Shown here piece after piece: positions 8,674-60,000 of a DNA stretch of 60,658 nt (the stretch's first letter is position 1; every line of letters starts with the position of its first letter). The stretch spans positions 1 through 60,658 of the IMG/VR virus record IMGVR_UViG_3300042868_014229. One strand, 5' to 3'. The notes under the pieces are model-generated. The model had not been told where the DNA came from and did no database searches. It was given only the letters and a program-made list of their open reading frames with translations. Source of the DNA: a virus. The position numbers were made by a program, and so were the translations under genes.

Positions 8674-8730
8674 TTTTTAAAATGATTTTTAATACCTACT
8701 CTATTATTGGTTTTCGGCTTCCCCTTATTT

Positions 8731-9557: not shown

Positions 9558-9720
9558 TGGTAGGGATGGCAGGAATCGAACCTGCACGAGTTCCATGTTT
9601 TATCATGCCTTGTTTCCCTTTTAGTGTCCTAAGTCGGCTAGCATGCAGAAACAACTTAGGTAGTAAGGAACTCTAGTAAGATTGCGTATAACTTAGCGGC
9701 TACCATTTCGCCACATCCCC
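9558..9720 (-). ncRNA. 163-nt tRNA-like RNA with pseudoknot potential
   Basis: The 5' end has a normal tRNA acceptor strand and D arm, and the 3' end has a normal T arm (GCAGG TTCGATT CCTGC), acceptor strand and encoded CCA (9558-9560). The acceptor stem GGGGATG/CATCCCT pairs over 7 bp with G1-U72. Between the arms lies about 100 nt instead of an ordinary anticodon arm. A 7-bp helix GAGTTCC (9667-9673)/GGAACTC (9588-9594) closes it. Inside, CCTAAG (9655-9660) pairs with CTTAGG (9628-9633) and TTGTTTC (9648-9654) with GAAACAA (9610-9616), which interleave as an H-type pseudoknot. The D arm and long extra arm look tRNA-Leu-like. It is either a tRNA with a large insertion or a reduced tmRNA-like RNA. 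No clear anticodon can be assigned. Confidence 0.55.
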
Positions 9721-27441: not shown

Positions 27442-28061
27442 TTTTTATTTAATTTAATTATACATGTAATTGCTATTCTTGGTTTTGTGGTCGAGTTCTC
27501 GTTTGAATAATGAACAGAGAATTGATTGTGAATGACACAATCACCATATTTTAACTCTACTGGTGTAAATTCTGCCAATGGTATATCTGTTATGTATTGC
27601 GACATCCCAGTCTTACCAGTTCGAGTTCTTACATTCGTTCCACAATCGTCATGTTTGATTATTTCACGTTTACCATCCCAATCCTTATAAAACATTGTTG
27701 AAGTTGATACATCAACATCATGCAAAGGAATCCAGAAAGTAAGAATGTCATCGTCCACGTTGTCAAAATAAGCACCATCTTGATGAGGTGCTGTAATTTT
27801 GTAATCAGGATGTTTTATAAAGTATTGCATATTAAGTACTTCGCCATCATACCCTAAAGTTTCTCTAATGTATTTAGAAATAATAAAAAATACTCTAAAA
27901 TTCTGACAATTTTGAATTTGTTTAACATCACCATTCTTGGTTCTAAAAACATTTTCATCCTTGCATTGTAGAGCAACTGATTCAAAATCCCTAGCAATTA
28001 AATCTAAACCTTCTTTAGGGAATGCTTGTCTTAATATTTTATACCCTTTTTCCATTACCAA
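27438..28061 (-). CDS. PhyH-like Fe(II)/2-oxoglutarate dioxygenase
   Basis: 207 residues. Metal triad HxD...H visible as APHQDGAYFDN and IHNQFSVHYSNEN, with a downstream Arg (KPRIAI) for 2-oxoglutarate. The family hydroxylates small molecules or, in phages, modified nucleobases. Overlaps the PRPP synthetase gene by 7 nt, so coupled to it. Substrate unknown. Confidence 0.75.
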   Translation of the reverse strand: MVMEKGYKILRQAFPKEGLDLIARDFESVALQCKDENVFRTKNGDVKQIQNCQNFRVFFIISKYIRETLGYDGEVLNMQYFIKHPDYKITAPHQDGAYFDNVDDDILTFWIPLHDVDVSTSTMFYKDWDGKREIIKHDDCGTNVRTRTGKTGMSQYITDIPLAEFTPVELKYGDCVIHNQFSVHYSNENSTTKPRIAITCIIKLNKK

Positions 28062-29044
28062 CGTTCTTTTTTAAGTCCTTCGTAACTAGAACTGCTATTG
28101 ATAGCACTCATAGCAATACTAATTTGTTTAGCCATGCTAATTACATTTATTTTGTTATTGCTATACATTCCGTTGTAGTCAACTGGCTTAGGTAGTGAGT
28201 TACTAATAACCAATTCAGTAAGAACCGATTTATCAATTCGAGCAAGAGCTGGTCCAGAACAAATTCCGTGACTAATAATCGCTCTAACACTCTTGGCACC
28301 AGCTTCTATAAGAACCTCTGCAGCTTTGCATAGCGTTCCAGCAGTATCAACCATATCATCCAAGATGATTACATCTTTATTGTTTACATCACCAATAACT
28401 GACATGGTATCAATAACGTTAGCTTTTGCTCTTGTTTTATACATAAGAACAAAATCCAAATCTAACCCATGAGTTTTCTCCAATTCTTTTTTCATTCTTT
28501 CAACACGTTTACCAGACCCTGCATCAGGACCACATAGGATTGTGTCTTCAGTAGCGATGCTAGCGATGTATTCGCTAAACACATTTTTACCTTCCAAATG
28601 AGTTACTGGAATGTTAAAGAACCCTTGAATTTGGTCAGCATGTAAATCAAATGTGATAACACCAGTCGCTCCACGTTGCTCAAGCATTTCAGCCACAACC
28701 TTGGCACCAATTGGTCCACGTTTTTGGTCTTTTTTGTCTTGACGAGCATATGGAAAATAAGGTAAAATTGGAATGATTTCTTTTGCTGCTGCACGTTTAG
28801 CGGCATCGATAGCCAAGTTAAGGTTCATGAGTTTATCAGAATCGTTTGCACTAGTAAGAATGTAAACACGCTTGCCTCTGATTGAATTATCAAAATCAGG
28901 ACATAATTCTCCATCGGAAAATTTTTGACTGGTTATGGTGTCTAAAGATACTTTATTTTTAATCTTGTGATTATCAATAAAGCTGACTATCTCGTTTGCA
29001 AAGTCTTCTCTACCATCTAGAGAAACTAATATAGTATTTTCCAT
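28055..29044 (-). CDS. prs: Ribose-phosphate pyrophosphokinase (PRPP synthetase)
   Basis: 329 residues. ILPYFPYARQDKK (ATP loop), ITFDLHADQIQGFFNIPV, and the PRPP-binding VIILDDMVDTAGTLCKAA mark a class-I PRPP synthetase, converting ribose 5-phosphate and ATP to PRPP. PRPP is the cosubstrate of Nampt (34120-35685), so the two fit one NAD+ route. It has its own promoter (29061-29093), apart from the nadM/nadV transcript. Confidence 0.93.
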   Translation of the reverse strand: MENTILVSLDGREDFANEIVSFIDNHKIKNKVSLDTITSQKFSDGELCPDFDNSIRGKRVYILTSANDSDKLMNLNLAIDAAKRAAAKEIIPILPYFPYARQDKKDQKRGPIGAKVVAEMLEQRGATGVITFDLHADQIQGFFNIPVTHLEGKNVFSEYIASIATEDTILCGPDAGSGKRVERMKKELEKTHGLDLDFVLMYKTRAKANVIDTMSVIGDVNNKDVIILDDMVDTAGTLCKAAEVLIEAGAKSVRAIISHGICSGPALARIDKSVLTELVISNSLPKPVDYNGMYSNNKINVISMAKQISIAMSAINSSSSYEGLKKERW

Positions 29045-34119: not shown

Positions 34120-35685
34120 TTAGTTTGTTATTTTTGCTCTTTCTCTTATTTCTTCAAAGGTCCAATCTTTAAGGATTTCACCATTTCTAAACACCTCAAC
34201 CAATTCATCTTGTACGGTGTCGAAATCGGCATCCATTGATGTAACTGTTCTGTATGTACCATCTTCATTCTTAACCAATTTAAGCTTTCCTTGCTTAGAT
34301 TTTTTGAATGATTTACTCAATCCACCGAACTCGTCCATTTCTGTTGGAGATTTAACGATGTTTTTTTCTTCACCATTCACAATAGCGTAACATGCTTTGG
34401 TTGCAAAGTTTTGTGTATCACGATTGATGTCTGCTTGAAGCAATTTACCACCCATACCCAACGCTAAGTTCTCTGGAGATATTTTCTCAGCTTCTAACAT
34501 TGCATAGATTTCTTGGATTGATTCGAAATTCACACCATCACCTTGAATTACTCTTACTTGTGGTGGCAATACTTTGTAACCTTTGTCATTGGTGGTAAAA
34601 CCAAATTTATCGAAAAGGATACTGAAGATTTCTTTTAACGTGTTGATTACGTGACCAGAATCTGGACGAATAACAAGTTGATTTCCTGGTTCTGCAGGTC
34701 TAGACAATACTAAATCTCTCAATTCAGTTCCCCAGTATTCAGAACATGCTCTGAAGATATTAAATGAATCTGATACACAAGCTACCAATCCAGTTGGATA
34801 TGTAGTTAATACTCGTTTCATCAACTCTAACTCTCCTTCTTCACCTTTAAGTGTCATGATTGAATGTTCAGTTGCTGGAATAGATAAACCATATACAGTA
34901 TCCGTATTGTAAAGGTCCGTAATCAATTTAGATGCTACTACAGTATCTGAACCTCTAAAGTTAACCAAGTGAGCAGAACCACCTATTCTAGCTGATTGTA
35001 CGCTTGATACACCACGGAAACCGAAATCATTCAATACGAAGTCAACCAAGAAATCAATTAACCCAGCATCGTATGATGTAGAGTTTTTAAATGCTTTGGT
35101 AACAACTTTTCTTACTTCTCTAGAAAGAGTAGCAACAGTGATAGGATACCAAACTTGTAATAAGATTGATTCTAAGAAATTTGTTAACCATGCACACTCA
35201 GGGTCAAGGCTTTCAATAACGAATAATACGTTTTTGGTTCCAACAACAGTTCCTTCTGGAACAGCTTTGATACTGATAGGTAATTTACCATCGTATTTGT
35301 CAACGATGTAATCAAATTTACTTCTATCGAATACATCATCACGACCAAAGATACCATGTTTGGTTCCAAGCATTCTATGTGCTTCAGCTACTTCTTCACG
35401 TGTAATTGCAATACCTTCTAAGTATTCTTTAAGGAATATTTGTAAACCGTAGAATACAGTTTCTGAGAATTTACCACCACGAGATTCCATATAAGAAACC
35501 ATCTTGGTCATTTCACTACCATAGAATTTGTGGTGTGAGTATTTGTAACCATCTGAACATAAGATAAGGTTATCTGGTTTTCCAATTACCTTGTTAAGGT
35601 ATTTTTGTACTTCTTTCATTTTGCTCCAATCTTTATTTTCGATTGCAGCGTTAATTTGTTCGAGTAATACTTTTTTCAATTTCAT
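34120..35685 (-). CDS. nadV: Nicotinamide phosphoribosyltransferase (Nampt)
   Basis: 521 residues. NLILCSDGYKYSHHKFYGSEM, VSYMESRGG, FGFRGVSSVQSARIGGSAHLVNF, PATEHSIM, and VIRPDSGHVINT / GDGVNFESIQEI fit bacterial and phage NadV. It makes NMN from nicotinamide and PRPP. With the NMN adenylyltransferase 616 nt upstream it forms a complete two-step nicotinamide-to-NAD+ route, the arrangement described as a phage NAD+ reconstitution pathway (Nampt plus NMNAT, NARP2) that counters NAD+-depleting defences. Confidence 0.95.
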   Translation of the reverse strand: MKLKKVLLEQINAAIENKDWSKMKEVQKYLNKVIGKPDNLILCSDGYKYSHHKFYGSEMTKMVSYMESRGGKFSETVFYGLQIFLKEYLEGIAITREEVAEAHRMLGTKHGIFGRDDVFDRSKFDYIVDKYDGKLPISIKAVPEGTVVGTKNVLFVIESLDPECAWLTNFLESILLQVWYPITVATLSREVRKVVTKAFKNSTSYDAGLIDFLVDFVLNDFGFRGVSSVQSARIGGSAHLVNFRGSDTVVASKLITDLYNTDTVYGLSIPATEHSIMTLKGEEGELELMKRVLTTYPTGLVACVSDSFNIFRACSEYWGTELRDLVLSRPAEPGNQLVIRPDSGHVINTLKEIFSILFDKFGFTTNDKGYKVLPPQVRVIQGDGVNFESIQEIYAMLEAEKISPENLALGMGGKLLQADINRDTQNFATKACYAIVNGEEKNIVKSPTEMDEFGGLSKSFKKSKQGKLKLVKNEDGTYRTVTSMDADFDTVQDELVEVFRNGEILKDWTFEEIRERAKITN

Positions 35686-45446: not shown

Positions 45447-46010
45447 TTACTTCATTTTATAATCTTTTTTACTTCCGTCAGCTTTTGAATAAACAATCTT
45501 TGAAGGTTCCATTTCCATATTAACCAAATCTTTAGCTTTCTTTATGTATTTTGCTGCCTTTCCTGGTTTTAAATACGCTATTGTACAATGTGGATGATAA
45601 TCTGGGAAGTTGCTAGTAAACGGATATTCTTTAAATACCTTATTCAATTTATGCAAGTCTTTGCTTTCAACATCAAACTTCAATACATCGTATTTAGGAT
45701 TATCAAAGGAAGAAATCGATTTAAAAGCGATTTTAGGCTCTTTAATTTCGTTTATGTCTTCTTCTATATCTTCGTCCTCGATGTCGTCATGTAGGCCATA
45801 TAATATGGTTACGTGAGGTTCATCTTCTCTACCATAACTGTTGTCACCTTCTTCGGTGTATAGGTCATCTTCGTCAATCATGTCTTGTAGTTCTTCCCAT
45901 GATTCTTCGTTTACATCTAGGAAAACCATAAGGCATCCATATTCATGTTTATGGTCTTTTTTTTCAGCTTCGGTAAGCAAAGCTTTTCTTACTAATTTAC
46001 GTATATTCAT
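45447..46010 (-). CDS. Tagged 2H phosphoesterase (2'-5' RNA ligase-like)
   Basis: HVTILYGLHDD and HPHCTIAYLKPG supply the two HxT/S motifs of 2H phosphoesterases, which process 2',3'-cyclic or 2'-5' phosphates of RNA or nucleotides. Start set at the internal Met (MNIRKLVRKALLTE), giving the same N-terminal tag as its neighbours; the 16 residues above it are unlike a tag. It may act on RNA ends, or counter 2'-5' or cyclic oligonucleotide signalling, which is an inference. Confidence 0.78.
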   Translation of the reverse strand: MNIRKLVRKALLTEAEKKDHKHEYGCLMVFLDVNEESWEELQDMIDEDDLYTEEGDNSYGREDEPHVTILYGLHDDIEDEDIEEDINEIKEPKIAFKSISSFDNPKYDVLKFDVESKDLHKLNKVFKEYPFTSNFPDYHPHCTIAYLKPGKAAKYIKKAKDLVNMEMEPSKIVYSKADGSKKDYKMK

Positions 46011-46051
46011 AATAATTCTTTTATATGTAAATATACGAATATAAAATAAAA

Positions 46052-46073
46052 AATCCATGCTTTCACATGGATT
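46052..46073 (-). terminator. Intrinsic terminator
   Basis: Stem AATCCATG/CATGGATT with 6-nt loop and T-rich tail on the - strand, directly below the 37-aa gene. Confidence 0.75.
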
Positions 46074-47301: not shown

Positions 47302-47374
47302 AGATAGAACAGAGAGATATTGTTTCAAATTAAAAGTTTGTTTTTGTTAATTGCTGAAATCTCTCTTTATCTTG

Positions 47375-56568: not shown

Positions 56569-56691
56569 TTGATAAGACAGGCTTCGAACCTGCACTAAGT
56601 ATCCAACAGTTTGTCCTTTCATTAAGGATGAGGTTTAGGATAGTCCCTTCGTTTAACTCACCATTGCGTCTACCAATTTCGCCACTTATCA
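56569..56691 (-). tRNA. Oversized tRNA-Leu-like RNA, 123 nt
   Basis: Acceptor TGATAAG/CTTATCA, a Leu-type D arm (GCGAAATTGGTAGACGC), T arm GCAGG TTCGAAG CCTGT. The middle is about 36 nt longer than a class II tRNA. GGTGAG/CTCATC can pair around a 24-nt loop. No clean anticodon arm can be chosen. It is a normal-looking tRNA at both ends with an insertion. Confidence 0.5.
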
Positions 56692-56699
56692 CATGGACC

Positions 56700-56935
56700 T
56701 AAGTCCGTTATTGATTTTTACATCGTTAACACCACGTTTATTCGTGGATTTTGGGGCGACTAGTTGAACGATTCAAATAGATGCTTCCACCACCTTATTT
56801 TCTATAGAACAAGGAAACTTTATTTTAGAACAGAGGCTCAAGGGAATAGATACACCTAGGCACTAGAAACCGTTCACCCATTAAATGGGTTACCTGAGCT
56901 TGTTCTGTATGCGATAACAAGATTAACTTTTTTCT
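56700..56935 (-). ncRNA. Candidate structured RNA between Leu-like and permuted tRNA
   Basis: About 236 nt without a frame. On the - strand, AGAACA-GCTCA (56895-56906) pairs with TGAGC-TGTTCT (56827-56840), closing a domain that holds hairpin ACCCAT/ATGGGT (56876-56890). It is directly 3' of the 5' half of the permuted tRNA-Asn. It might help circularise or process that RNA, or be an independent ncRNA. I do not recognise it as a group I intron (core motifs not seen). Confidence 0.35.
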
Positions 56936-56938
56936 TTT

Positions 56939-57021
56939 TCGTGCTCTAACCAACTGAGCTAACCGCCCAGTAATATCGGACAGTATGGGACTCGAACCCA
57001 TGACAACGAGCTTAACAGGCT
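56939..57021 (-). tRNA. Circularly permuted tRNA-Asn(GTT)
   Basis: On the - strand the 3' half comes first (57021-56977: GC CTGTTAA GCTCG, variable TTGTC, T arm ATGGG TTCGAGT CCCAT, acceptor strand ACTGTCC, G73). Then 8 nt of spacer (56969-56976), then the 5' half (56968-56939: acceptor strand GGGCGGT, TA, D arm GCTC/GAGC with loop AGTTGGTTA, A26, CGA). Joined as 5' half plus 3' half, the parts give a full 74-nt cloverleaf: acceptor 7/7 paired, and anticodon stem CGAGC/GCTCG around loop CTGTTAA. The break is between positions 29 and 30. Neither half has a partner in normal order nearby. A 7-bp pairing AAGATTA/TAATCTT flanks the unit. Confidence 0.8.
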
Positions 57022-57063
57022 ATAGATTTTTTGTTGCTGAAATAATCTTTTTTTATCTTTCTT

Positions 57064-57328: not shown

Positions 57329-57412
57329 ATAGCAAGAGGACGTAATTGCGATATTACTTAATCACCTCGGTATTGTCGCAGTCTTACCACCGTAACTTGG
57401 CTTGCTATTTTG

Positions 57413-57477
57413 TCGAGGTGAAAGGATTCGAACCTTAACACCTCGTGTTTTGGTACCATCTTTCCCACGATAGTACC
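57413..57477 (-). other. Rearranged tRNA-like element
   Basis: 57413-57445 is a minihelix: acceptor CGAGGTG, TT, T arm AAGG TTCGAAT CCTT, acceptor CACCTCG, with no D or anticodon arm between. Just upstream on the same strand (57452-57477) is a 9-bp hairpin GGTACTATC/GATGGTACC with loop GTGGGAAA that contains GGG after U (proline-like). C1-G72 also suits Pro. The D/anticodon part appears moved in front of the acceptor/T part, or this is a broken tRNA. Confidence 0.4.
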
Positions 57478-57620
57478 ATTGCAGTGTTTTCTTTGGGAGA
57501 GGGTCCGAACTGCAAACCCAGAAATTCTAGCATTTCCTCAGCTGTCACAATCATTTCACCTTAACATCTTCCATGGCTTGTTAAAGTTCTTTACGTAAGT
57601 GTAACCGTCTTACTGTATTT

Positions 57621-58286
57621 TTATTTTCTACCTTTTAACCAACCTTCATTTAGGTAGATTTCTAGGTCTTCTTTTTTAATTTTTTTATTGTTATTATCTT
57701 TTGTTATCCAACACGTTCCGTATTGACTGTTTGTTTTACCAACACCAGTACCTTTTCTTTGTTCAGACATTAATTGTTTTGTTTCTTCTGAATGTTTACT
57801 TTCAAATCTAACACCACCATTAAAACCAGTTAAAACACCCATAACATATTTTTTCTTTTGAGCTTCACTTGATATTTTAAACATTTTTTCTTTGAAATCT
57901 AAATCATTTTTTAACTTTTCAAGTCTACTATTAACCCCAGCTTTTGAACCTGCTAATTGAAATTTTTGTAAATGTTCTTTATTAACAAATCCACCACCTT
58001 CACCACCAACAACTAAATTCATACATAAATCTTCACTTATCAATTCTTTAGTAACTAGTTCTTTTTCTCTTTCTTTTAATAATTCTCTAGTTTCTAAAAA
58101 CTCTAGAATTTCTTTTGTGTGATTATCTTTACCATGATAATTTATTGAAAACCATAATCTTTTACCGCTCCCAAAATAACCATCGTTAAGATTATCGGTA
58201 CTATGCATACCAATATAAAATCTGTTTGTCACATTACATGTAATTTTATAAATGTAATGATATTTTCTTTTTTTTGTTCTTGTCAT
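57621..58286 (-). CDS. GIY-YIG homing-type endonuclease, tRNA-array copy 1
   Basis: Start set at MTRTKKRKYHYIYKITCN to align with its paralogue at 59050. GIY-YIG domain: YIYKITCNVTNRFYIGMHST, catalytic-site region LNDGYFGSGKRLWFSI, and E in LLKEREKELV. The C-terminal half has KHSEETKQLMSEQRKGTG and YGTCWITK, as in NUMOD-type DNA-binding repeats of phage homing nucleases. It sits in the tRNA array, probably cutting allelic tRNA arrays to spread. 221 aa. Confidence 0.85.
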   Translation of the reverse strand: MTRTKKRKYHYIYKITCNVTNRFYIGMHSTDNLNDGYFGSGKRLWFSINYHGKDNHTKEILEFLETRELLKEREKELVTKELISEDLCMNLVVGGEGGGFVNKEHLQKFQLAGSKAGVNSRLEKLKNDLDFKEKMFKISSEAQKKKYVMGVLTGFNGGVRFESKHSEETKQLMSEQRKGTGVGKTNSQYGTCWITKDNNNKKIKKEDLEIYLNEGWLKGRK

Positions 58287-58335
58287 ATATATTCTTTTAT
58301 TATAAATATACACGAAAACGCAAAAAAGTCAAGTG

Positions 58336-58529: not shown

Positions 58530-58566
58530 TTTTTATTTAAACTTTTTTTAATTATTTTATAACTTG

Positions 58567-58639
58567 TTGAGAGAGAGGGTTTCGAACCCTACGCTACCAC
58601 CCGTCTAGGTGGCCTTCTAACCAATTAAAGTATCTCCCA
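58567..58639 (-). tRNA. tRNA-like gene with 6- or 8-nt anticodon loop
   Basis: Acceptor TGGGAGA/TCTCTCA, T loop TTCGAAA. The anticodon arm is CCACC/GGTGG with loop TAGACG (6 nt), or 8 nt (CTAGACGG) if the top pair opens. The T stem has one mismatch. Isotype undetermined. Confidence 0.5.
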
Positions 58640-59049: not shown

Positions 59050-59697
59050 TTATTTTATTTTTCTTCCTTTTAACCAACCATCTAATTGATAGGTTTCAAG
59101 GTCTTCTTTTTTAATCTTTTTGTTAATACCTTCTTTGGTTATCCAACATGTACCGAATTGGCTATTTGTTTCCTCAGTTCCAGTACCTTTTCTTATTTCA
59201 GATAGTAATTGTTTTGTTTCTTCTGAATGAGTTTTACCTTTAAATGAAACATTTTTAAAGTTACCATTTTCTTTAGCTTTTTTAGTATTTTCCATTAATA
59301 AAGTTCTATTACGATTTGCAAATTCAACATCTGTTTTTAATTTTTTTAGTCTGTTAATTTTAGCAATAGCCATAAATTTTTGTTTATGTTCTTCACTTGA
59401 AAACCCACCATCACCACCTTCTTTAAGATTCATACATAAATCCTCAGATAACAATTCTTTATTTACTAATTCTTTTTCTCTTTCTTTTAATAATATTCTA
59501 CTAGGTAGATATTCTAATATTTCTTTAGCATGGTTTTCTTTACCATGATAGTTTATTGAAAACCATAATCTTTTTCCACTACCAAAATAACCATCATTAA
59601 GGTTATCAGTGCTATGCATACCAATATAAAACCTATTTGTTATATTACACGTAATTTTATAAATGTAATGATATTTTCTTTTTTCTGCTCTTGCCAT
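59050..59697 (-). CDS. GIY-YIG homing-type endonuclease, tRNA-array copy 2
   Basis: 215 residues, closely related to the product of 57621-58286 through the whole length: YIYKITCNITNRFYIGMHST, FGSGKRLWFSINYHG, KTHSEETKQLLSEIRKGTG, FGTCWITKEG. It lies just below tRNA-Ala. Even the leader upstream of both genes is conserved, ending GCAAAAAAGTCAAG on the + strand before the next tRNA. Recent duplication. Confidence 0.85.
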   Translation of the reverse strand: MARAEKRKYHYIYKITCNITNRFYIGMHSTDNLNDGYFGSGKRLWFSINYHGKENHAKEILEYLPSRILLKEREKELVNKELLSEDLCMNLKEGGDGGFSSEEHKQKFMAIAKINRLKKLKTDVEFANRNRTLLMENTKKAKENGNFKNVSFKGKTHSEETKQLLSEIRKGTGTEETNSQFGTCWITKEGINKKIKKEDLETYQLDGWLKGRKIK

Positions 59698-59878: not shown

Positions 59879-60000
59879 CGGACACGGCAGGATTCGAACC
59901 TACATCTTTTTCGTGAAAGGAAAATTAACATTTAATGCTGCAGATAACCTTATCAGGTTATGACTTGTTTTATAACATGCTACCATTACACCACGTGCCC
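59879..60000 (-). tRNA. tRNA-Glu(TTC) with 51-nt internal insertion
   Basis: Acceptor GGGCACG/CGTGTCC, D arm ending GGTAGCAT, anticodon arm TTTTC CTTTCAC GAAAA (TTC), variable AGAT, T arm GTAGG TTCGAAT CCTGC, all canonical. Between the D arm and the anticodon stem, 52 nt (59925-59976) stand where position 26 should be. The insert forms hairpin ATAACCT/AGGTTAT and a second GTTAT/ATAAC pairing. A removable segment is implied because the two tRNA parts fit well. Two normal tRNA-Glu(TTC) genes also exist. Confidence 0.75.

Follow-up and report, generated by a model that had tools for sequence, protein, structure and literature searches.

The window analysed here is the entire IMG/VR virus record IMGVR_UViG_3300042868_014229 (60,658 bases), which probably represents part of the genome of a large tailed phage and is tRNA-rich at one end. 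Its minus strand contains a circular permutation of a tRNA(Asn) sequence, an assignment that is fully supported at the level of sequence. The locus had been taken for an isolated oddity in a sequence-only reading; it proves instead to belong to a widespread family, with 21 distinct relatives in phage contigs when all searches are combined, which is tied to an element that interrupts phage tRNAs of normal order. The family and its origin are close to certain, and far more certain than the function. For the latter we tentatively favour a conserved, permuted tRNA-like platform RNA that may serve chiefly as a decoy or sink for anticodon nucleases.

Structure of the permuted locus

The RNA gene is about 130 nucleotides (nt) long and lies at 57049-56919 on the minus strand. 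In 5' to 3' order it consists of AAGATTA, TTTCAGCAACAAAAAATCTAT, tRNA positions 29-73, an 8-nt linker, tRNA positions 1-28, an A-rich stretch and TAATCTT. These parts are located as follows:

57043-57049, minus strand: 5' strand of the outer (platform) stem, AAGATTA; this is helix 1 of the covariation alignment described below, with 92% of cells paired and changes on both sides in four pairs
57022-57042, minus strand: platform segment TTTCAGCAACAAAAAATCTAT, containing the invariant CAGCAA and matching the 3' portion of the interrupting element in linear phage tRNAs; CAGCAA is present in 18 permuted genes and in the linear interrupted tRNAs
56976-57021, minus strand: 3' half of the tRNA, A29 to G73, the 3' border being good to about one base
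56969-56976, minus strand: linker ATATTACT of 8 nt or fewer, joining the mature 3' and 5' ends; if left uncut it would form a loop capping the acceptor stem
56939-56968, minus strand: 5' half of the tRNA, comprising GGGCGGT (acceptor 5' strand), the D-arm, A26 and positions 27-28 (CG), placed by sequence, covariation and the partner search
56926-56938, minus strand: A-rich segment AAAAAGAAAAAAG, the 5' part of the interrupting element by comparison with linear interrupted tRNAs
56919-56925, minus strand: 3' strand of the outer stem, TAATCTT, then GTT; helix 1 of the covariation alignment

The 3' half reads AGC-CTGTTAA-GCTCG (anticodon arm), TTGTC (variable loop), ATGGG-TTCGAGT-CCCAT (T-arm), ACTGTCC and G73, and the 5' half reads GGGCGGT-TA-GCTC-AGTTGGTTA-GAGC-A-CG, ending at 56939. 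Rejoined, the halves form tRNA-Asn(GUU), a perfect cloverleaf with the canonical CTGTTAA loop, in which all seven acceptor positions pair (five Watson-Crick and two G-U). ARAGORN does not detect the permuted gene in the window sequence as it stands. Only one of the 35 T-arms in the window, the 3' half at this locus, pairs at 7/7 positions with GGGCGGT. Within 2 kb upstream no 5' half in normal order is credible, the two matches there being chance ones inside a coding sequence, and within 2 kb downstream no 3' half pairs with GGGCGGT. This acceptor-partner search, covering the 35 T-arms and 2 kb on either side, was the basis for rejecting a pair of neighbouring, separately interrupted tRNAs.

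The sequence-only reading had described a 3' half preceding the 5' half across a short linker, which is borne out by the reading of the sequence and the acceptor pairing. Its claim of a tRNA-Asn cloverleaf with seven acceptor pairs agrees with the pairing, with ARAGORN after rejoining and with covariation, and the proposed AAGATTA/TAATCTT helix holding the ends together is conserved in the covariation alignment. The break does lie in the anticodon stem, as that reading had it, but its exact site is best set at 28/29 rather than 29/30, although 29/30 is possible in the window, an A being shared by both sides (56938 could be position 29). In loci L008, L059 and L104 position 29 comes from the 3' half.

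Relatives in other phages

Relatives were sought through the neighbouring protein of 383 amino acids, by pattern scans and with a structural finder tuned to the anatomy of the locus. The protein search led to ten related loci, most of them about 64% identical in this protein, and a permuted gene is present at the same place in all of them except L010. The background of the structural finder is two matches in 3.9 Mb of locally shuffled sequence. After rejoining, ARAGORN calls all 21 relatives as tRNAs (Asn, Lys, Arg, Ser and Thr) and as they stand it calls none, a result that is partly circular because the structural finder itself requires stems. An unbiased set is provided by the occurrences of the 17-mer AAAGATTATTTCAGCAA, for which no structure was demanded. 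A T-loop is found in 16 of its 34 distinct occurrences, acceptor pairing is 6-7 out of 7 in 15 of those 16, and a swap test over the ten acceptor types in this set gives p = 5e-5.

In the covariation alignment of 18 permuted genes 95.3% of cells are paired, against 25-41% when slid by one to three columns, and changes on both sides occur in 18 of the 28 pairs. The covariation score is 0.490 compared with 0.181 in shuffles, none of 500 shuffles reaching it, and CAGCAA is invariant across all 18 genes. We conclude from these sequence comparisons that the permuted fold is under selection.

Model R1 identifies two permuted-type RNAs in each of the Klebsiella phages KP13-26 and KP13-16 (70-84 bits) and another in Cronobacter phage GAP32 (66 bits), all three being cultured phages; in GAP32 the acceptor stem is CAGTACT-TTCG-AGTACTG. 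The homologue in Pectobacterium phage CBB is a weaker match whose acceptor looks degraded, and the anticodon arm of copy A in KP13-26 looks incomplete. T4 gives only a marginal match to the model, across tandem tRNAs. The T4 stable RNAs C and D are small RNAs of the tRNA cluster whose function is unknown; they have no CAGCAA platform and are ruled out as relatives. Among open-licence papers in PMC, which give weak evidence of absence, none was found that describes permuted tRNAs in phages or the tRNA-interrupting element. The passages located in the CBB genome paper list tRNAs and do not mention tRNA introns.

Relation to interrupted linear tRNAs

In several phages an element of about 41-60 nt splits the anticodon arm of normal-order tRNAs, in most cases at 28|29. 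The element consists of an A-rich stretch, a hairpin whose loop is often TG...AA, and, some 12 nt ahead of the second exon, a motif resembling CAGCAA. Linear interrupted tRNAs of this kind are found in L005-L010, in Vibrio phages D479 and D482, in GAP32 and in the window, where the example is:

59879-60000, minus strand: linear interrupted tRNA with the hairpin ATAACC-TGATAA-GGTTAT followed by CTGCAGCA; its anticodon is TTC, and the body in relatives carries GTC (Asp)

The permuted tRNA of the window itself occurs in normal order in D479 (L087:1506-1625), with the junction GAGCACG^TATGAAA-TGATTC-TGTCAA-GAATCG-ATACCGCACACTAAACTCAAT^AGCCCGTTAAGCTCG. In permuted genes the 5' strand of the outer stem precedes TTTCAGCAA, and TG or GT comes after the 3' strand. 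Since the flanks of the permuted gene are the two halves of the interrupting element, the gene corresponds to an interrupted tRNA that is opened anew within the hairpin loop. It is accordingly read as a circularly permuted form of such a tRNA whose new ends lie in the loop of the element; the direction of change between the linear interrupted and permuted forms is one that we infer.

The linear relatives mostly have canonical identity bases, and CCA is encoded in GAP32 and L176. They look like real tRNAs and would therefore need splicing. The element shares with group I introns of bacterial and phage tRNA genes the interruption of an anticodon arm, but differs from them in its length, in its position in the anticodon stem and in having no group I core in cmscan. 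It has no match in Rfam 15 and is too short for group I, so that a group I or group II intron, or another known Rfam RNA, was rejected.

A platform displaying anticodon stem-loops

The window contains a second RNA of this type:

47312-47365, minus strand: platform RNA with the outer stem, TTTCAGCAA and a bare Lys(UUU)-type stem-loop, CAAA-CTTTTAA-TTTG, without a tRNA body; it is a weak match to model R1 (26.4 bits, E 0.005)

Bare Lys(UUU) stem-loops are present on the platform in the window and its relatives, and elsewhere the stem-loop is that of Asn, Ser(UGA), Pro(UGG), Cys(GCA) or Thr(GGU). When candidates were picked on the stem and CAGCAA alone, 22 of the 143 hold an anticodon-type hairpin (loop of 7 nt with U33 and a purine as base 37), whereas shuffles predict 3.2. 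The platform also occurs with a Leu-type anticodon arm plus a T-arm. We conclude that the same platform carries bare anticodon stem-loops of several tRNAs; as these have no tRNA body they are not tRNAs and cannot be aminoacylated. At 15207-15401 of L042 there is a 195-nt RNA in which the platform stem and TTTCTGCAA surround a complex non-tRNA structure, so the platform may carry further cargo.

Evidence for and against tRNA mimicry

The discriminator base of the permuted Asn genes is relaxed. G73 is found in two of 11 permuted genes with the anticodon GTT and in nine of ten ordinary tRNA-Asn of the examined phage loci (p = 0.002, a significance that is overstated because the relatives share descent). 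The acceptor end is closed by a loop of 3-4 nt in 12 of 18 permuted genes, including UUCG in L276 and GCAA in L104; UUCG recurs as a capping loop in GAP32 and GCAA in L278. On a constant body the anticodon arm differs, with a compensatory stem change, between L004 (CCT) and L008 (CTT). The drifting discriminators and the short, capped acceptor ends are more suggestive of a tRNA mimic than of a tRNA used in translation, and together with the bodiless members they lead us to favour the former. The linker was also considered as a general extension of the acceptor helix, which is not significant overall.

The RNAs of the family consist of the outer helix, the single-stranded CAGCAA segment and the A-rich segment opposite it, plus the displayed tRNA part. 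Their chief role may be the presentation of an anticodon arm of tRNA shape, for which aminoacylation does not occur or is dispensable, and the displayed arm would most likely be a decoy, or a sink, for anticodon nucleases of the host. Pnkp and a T4-type RNA ligase are also encoded by phages with these RNAs. Phage tRNAs that escape anticodon nucleases offer a comparable case of a phage tRNA-derived RNA bearing on such nucleases (T5 tRNA-Lys and PARIS; van den Berg et al., eLife 85183). They are ordinary linear molecules with changed loops, which take the place of the host tRNA once it is cut; decoy action by the present family is a proposal.

Besides the shared descent of the relatives, several observations weigh against a decoy. 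The permuted gene of the window keeps G73 and has a longer linker. Short acceptor loops are weakly enriched at spacers of at least 5 nt (8 against 4.7 expected), and shuffled linkers often behave alike. No nuclease target of the proposed decoy was identified. Splicing signals would account more readily for the invariance of CAGCAA and the common break point than would parts of a decoy. In GAP32 and CBB the break, read by eye, is apparently in the anticodon loop and not in the stem, so that an intact loop would exist only after joining.

Splicing and other explanations

These last observations bear on a serious rival, in which the RNAs are matured by the phage Pnkp and T4-type RNA ligase. The locus would then be a true permuted tRNA gene, cut at 28|29 on both sides and circularised by Pnkp (5'-OH kinase/3'-phosphatase) and the T4-type RNA ligase 1 (Rnl1), after which RNase P and a 3' endonuclease would remove the linker and CCA would be added; the scheme would be that of red algae, carried out by non-homologous enzymes. 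We consider this quite possible, though less probable than a decoy. The perfect cloverleaf and canonical loop in the window speak for it, and the break point is shared with linear tRNAs that carry the same element and mostly canonical identity bases, some with an encoded CCA. Rnl1 is above cut-off in eight of 11 records and a Pnkp-like kinase is present in 11 of 13, usually near the ligase; the window record itself is not long enough for its own ligase to be seen. Together these two enzymes are a known phage tRNA-repair pair, reviewed for jumbo phages (PMC7824862), and would suffice for joining, given a cutting activity. An archaeal or EndA-type splicing endonuclease (PF01974) is absent from 13 phage records and RtcB from 11; we know of no cutting enzyme for these RNAs. 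The unconserved discriminator, the change of anticodons on a constant body, the capped acceptor stems and the bodiless family members also count against a true tRNA gene. A gene for a 2H phosphoesterase (2'-5' RNA ligase superfamily, Acb1-like) adjoins the tRNA cluster of the window at 45447-46058 on the minus strand, its product could open cyclic phosphates before ligation or counter the cyclic-oligonucleotide-based anti-phage signalling system (CBASS).

Permuted tRNA genes have previously been reported from some algae and archaea, where they are tied to the splicing endonuclease; those of red and green algae and of Thermofilum pendens are processed by the bulge-helix-bulge endonuclease, and linkers in known permuted genes are of 1-74 nt, a range that includes the window linker (PMC3978253). 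The phage genes resemble those of algae and T. pendens in having the 3' half first, a short linker, and a leader and trailer able to pair. They differ in their bacterial-virus setting, in the 28/29 break in the anticodon stem and in that no bulge-helix-bulge enzyme family was found; by eye, with no motif program applied, no bulge-helix-bulge is obvious at the break. The constant CAGCAA platform, drifting discriminators and bodiless relatives of the phage family also set it apart from the algal and T. pendens genes.

Splicing and decoy action might also be combined. Here the phage Pnkp, Rnl1 and a nuclease that reads CAGCAA would splice the permuted RNAs into circular tRNAs with closed acceptors, which would act as stable anticodon-nuclease decoys. 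We regard this as unlikely; if true, the RNAs would constitute both a novel kind of bacterial tRNA intron and a novel RNA family, and their use would be a novel anti-defence strategy.

The platform might also have another purpose, for example as a guide, an anchor or an antitoxin-like RNA for some protein of phage or host by which the anticodon arm is read; in favour of this, the CAGCAA platform is constant and the displayed part varies. No candidate protein was found, and we consider such a role improbable.

It is very improbable that the family represents a phage Y RNA of the YrlA kind (RF02553), that is, a mimic with the T-arm before the D-arm that tethers a Ro60-like (Rsr) protein. YrlA is likewise a tRNA mimic with a permuted T-arm, a capped acceptor stem and a D-arm on an outer stem, and cmscan matches positions 23-87 of YrlA in this same order with 38 bits. 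This score is below the gathering score of 69, and the YrlA model also has sub-threshold matches in 11 of 14 control genomes. The outer, Ro-binding part is unmatched, the phage RNAs have a different outer module and usually an anticodon arm, and no TROVE/Ro60 protein was found in ten records, including contigs of 306 kb and 233 kb, these being fragments and a host protein being possible. Membership was rejected on the score, the Ro-binding part and the partner protein. The tRNA-like part of YrlA has been proposed earlier as a competitive inhibitor directed against an anticodon nuclease (PMC7790460). This idea is more natural for the phage family, because here the anticodon arms themselves are displayed.

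Least probable of all is a functionless, decayed or rearranged tRNA array, with a degenerate tRNA beside the 3' half of another: tandem tRNAs with homing endonuclease genes are prone to recombination and some members look incomplete (the CBB acceptor and the anticodon arm of KP13-26 copy A), but the covariation, the invariant CAGCAA and the conservation among relatives that are about 64% identical in the neighbouring protein argue against it, the covariation strongly so.

A conserved family in bacterial viruses raises the question of how phages could cut and join tRNAs, and provides a new candidate role for phage Pnkp and RNA ligase. Among phage 'tRNAs' there may, moreover, be mimics directed at anticodon nucleases. 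As members occur in KP13-26, KP13-16 and GAP32, and linear kin in D479, the proposals are testable now.

Other features of the window

Several further sequences surround the permuted gene on the minus strand. The segment at 56700-56918 has a number of strong inverted repeats as well as the words GTGAACGG and GTGGTGG; it is kept in part in L003 and L005 and is possibly a structured RNA. It is followed at 56572-56693 by a Leu-like tRNA, located after the permuted gene, which carries a long insertion within or close to its anticodon arm, is missed by ARAGORN and does not contain the CAGCAA motif. At 57414-57597 a long and highly structured stretch leads up to a T-arm with a CACCTCG 3' acceptor strand, after which CGAGGTG occurs near 57370; this is possibly a broken or permuted tRNA-like element.

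The tRNA cluster also includes two SegB/GIY-YIG-like genes for free-standing homing endonucleases (57621-58313 and 59050-59697, minus strand), similar to segB of T4. A conserved tRNA with a 4-base anticodon call (AGAC/AAAC) and an 8-nt loop is present at 58566-58639 on the minus strand, at 2053-2126 of L007 and at 533-606 of L006. A lone tRNA with an insertion of about 85 nt lies far from the clusters (9561-9720, minus strand), near a match to the DUF805b RNA at 8693-8727. Genes for an ATP-binding cassette (ABC) transporter ATPase and an inner-membrane permease are situated between the tRNA clusters of the phage genome (49821-51559, minus strand). Ribose-phosphate pyrophosphokinase and nicotinamide phosphoribosyltransferase, a salvage pair for nicotinamide adenine dinucleotide (NAD+), are encoded at 28055-29044 and 34120-35685 on the minus strand.
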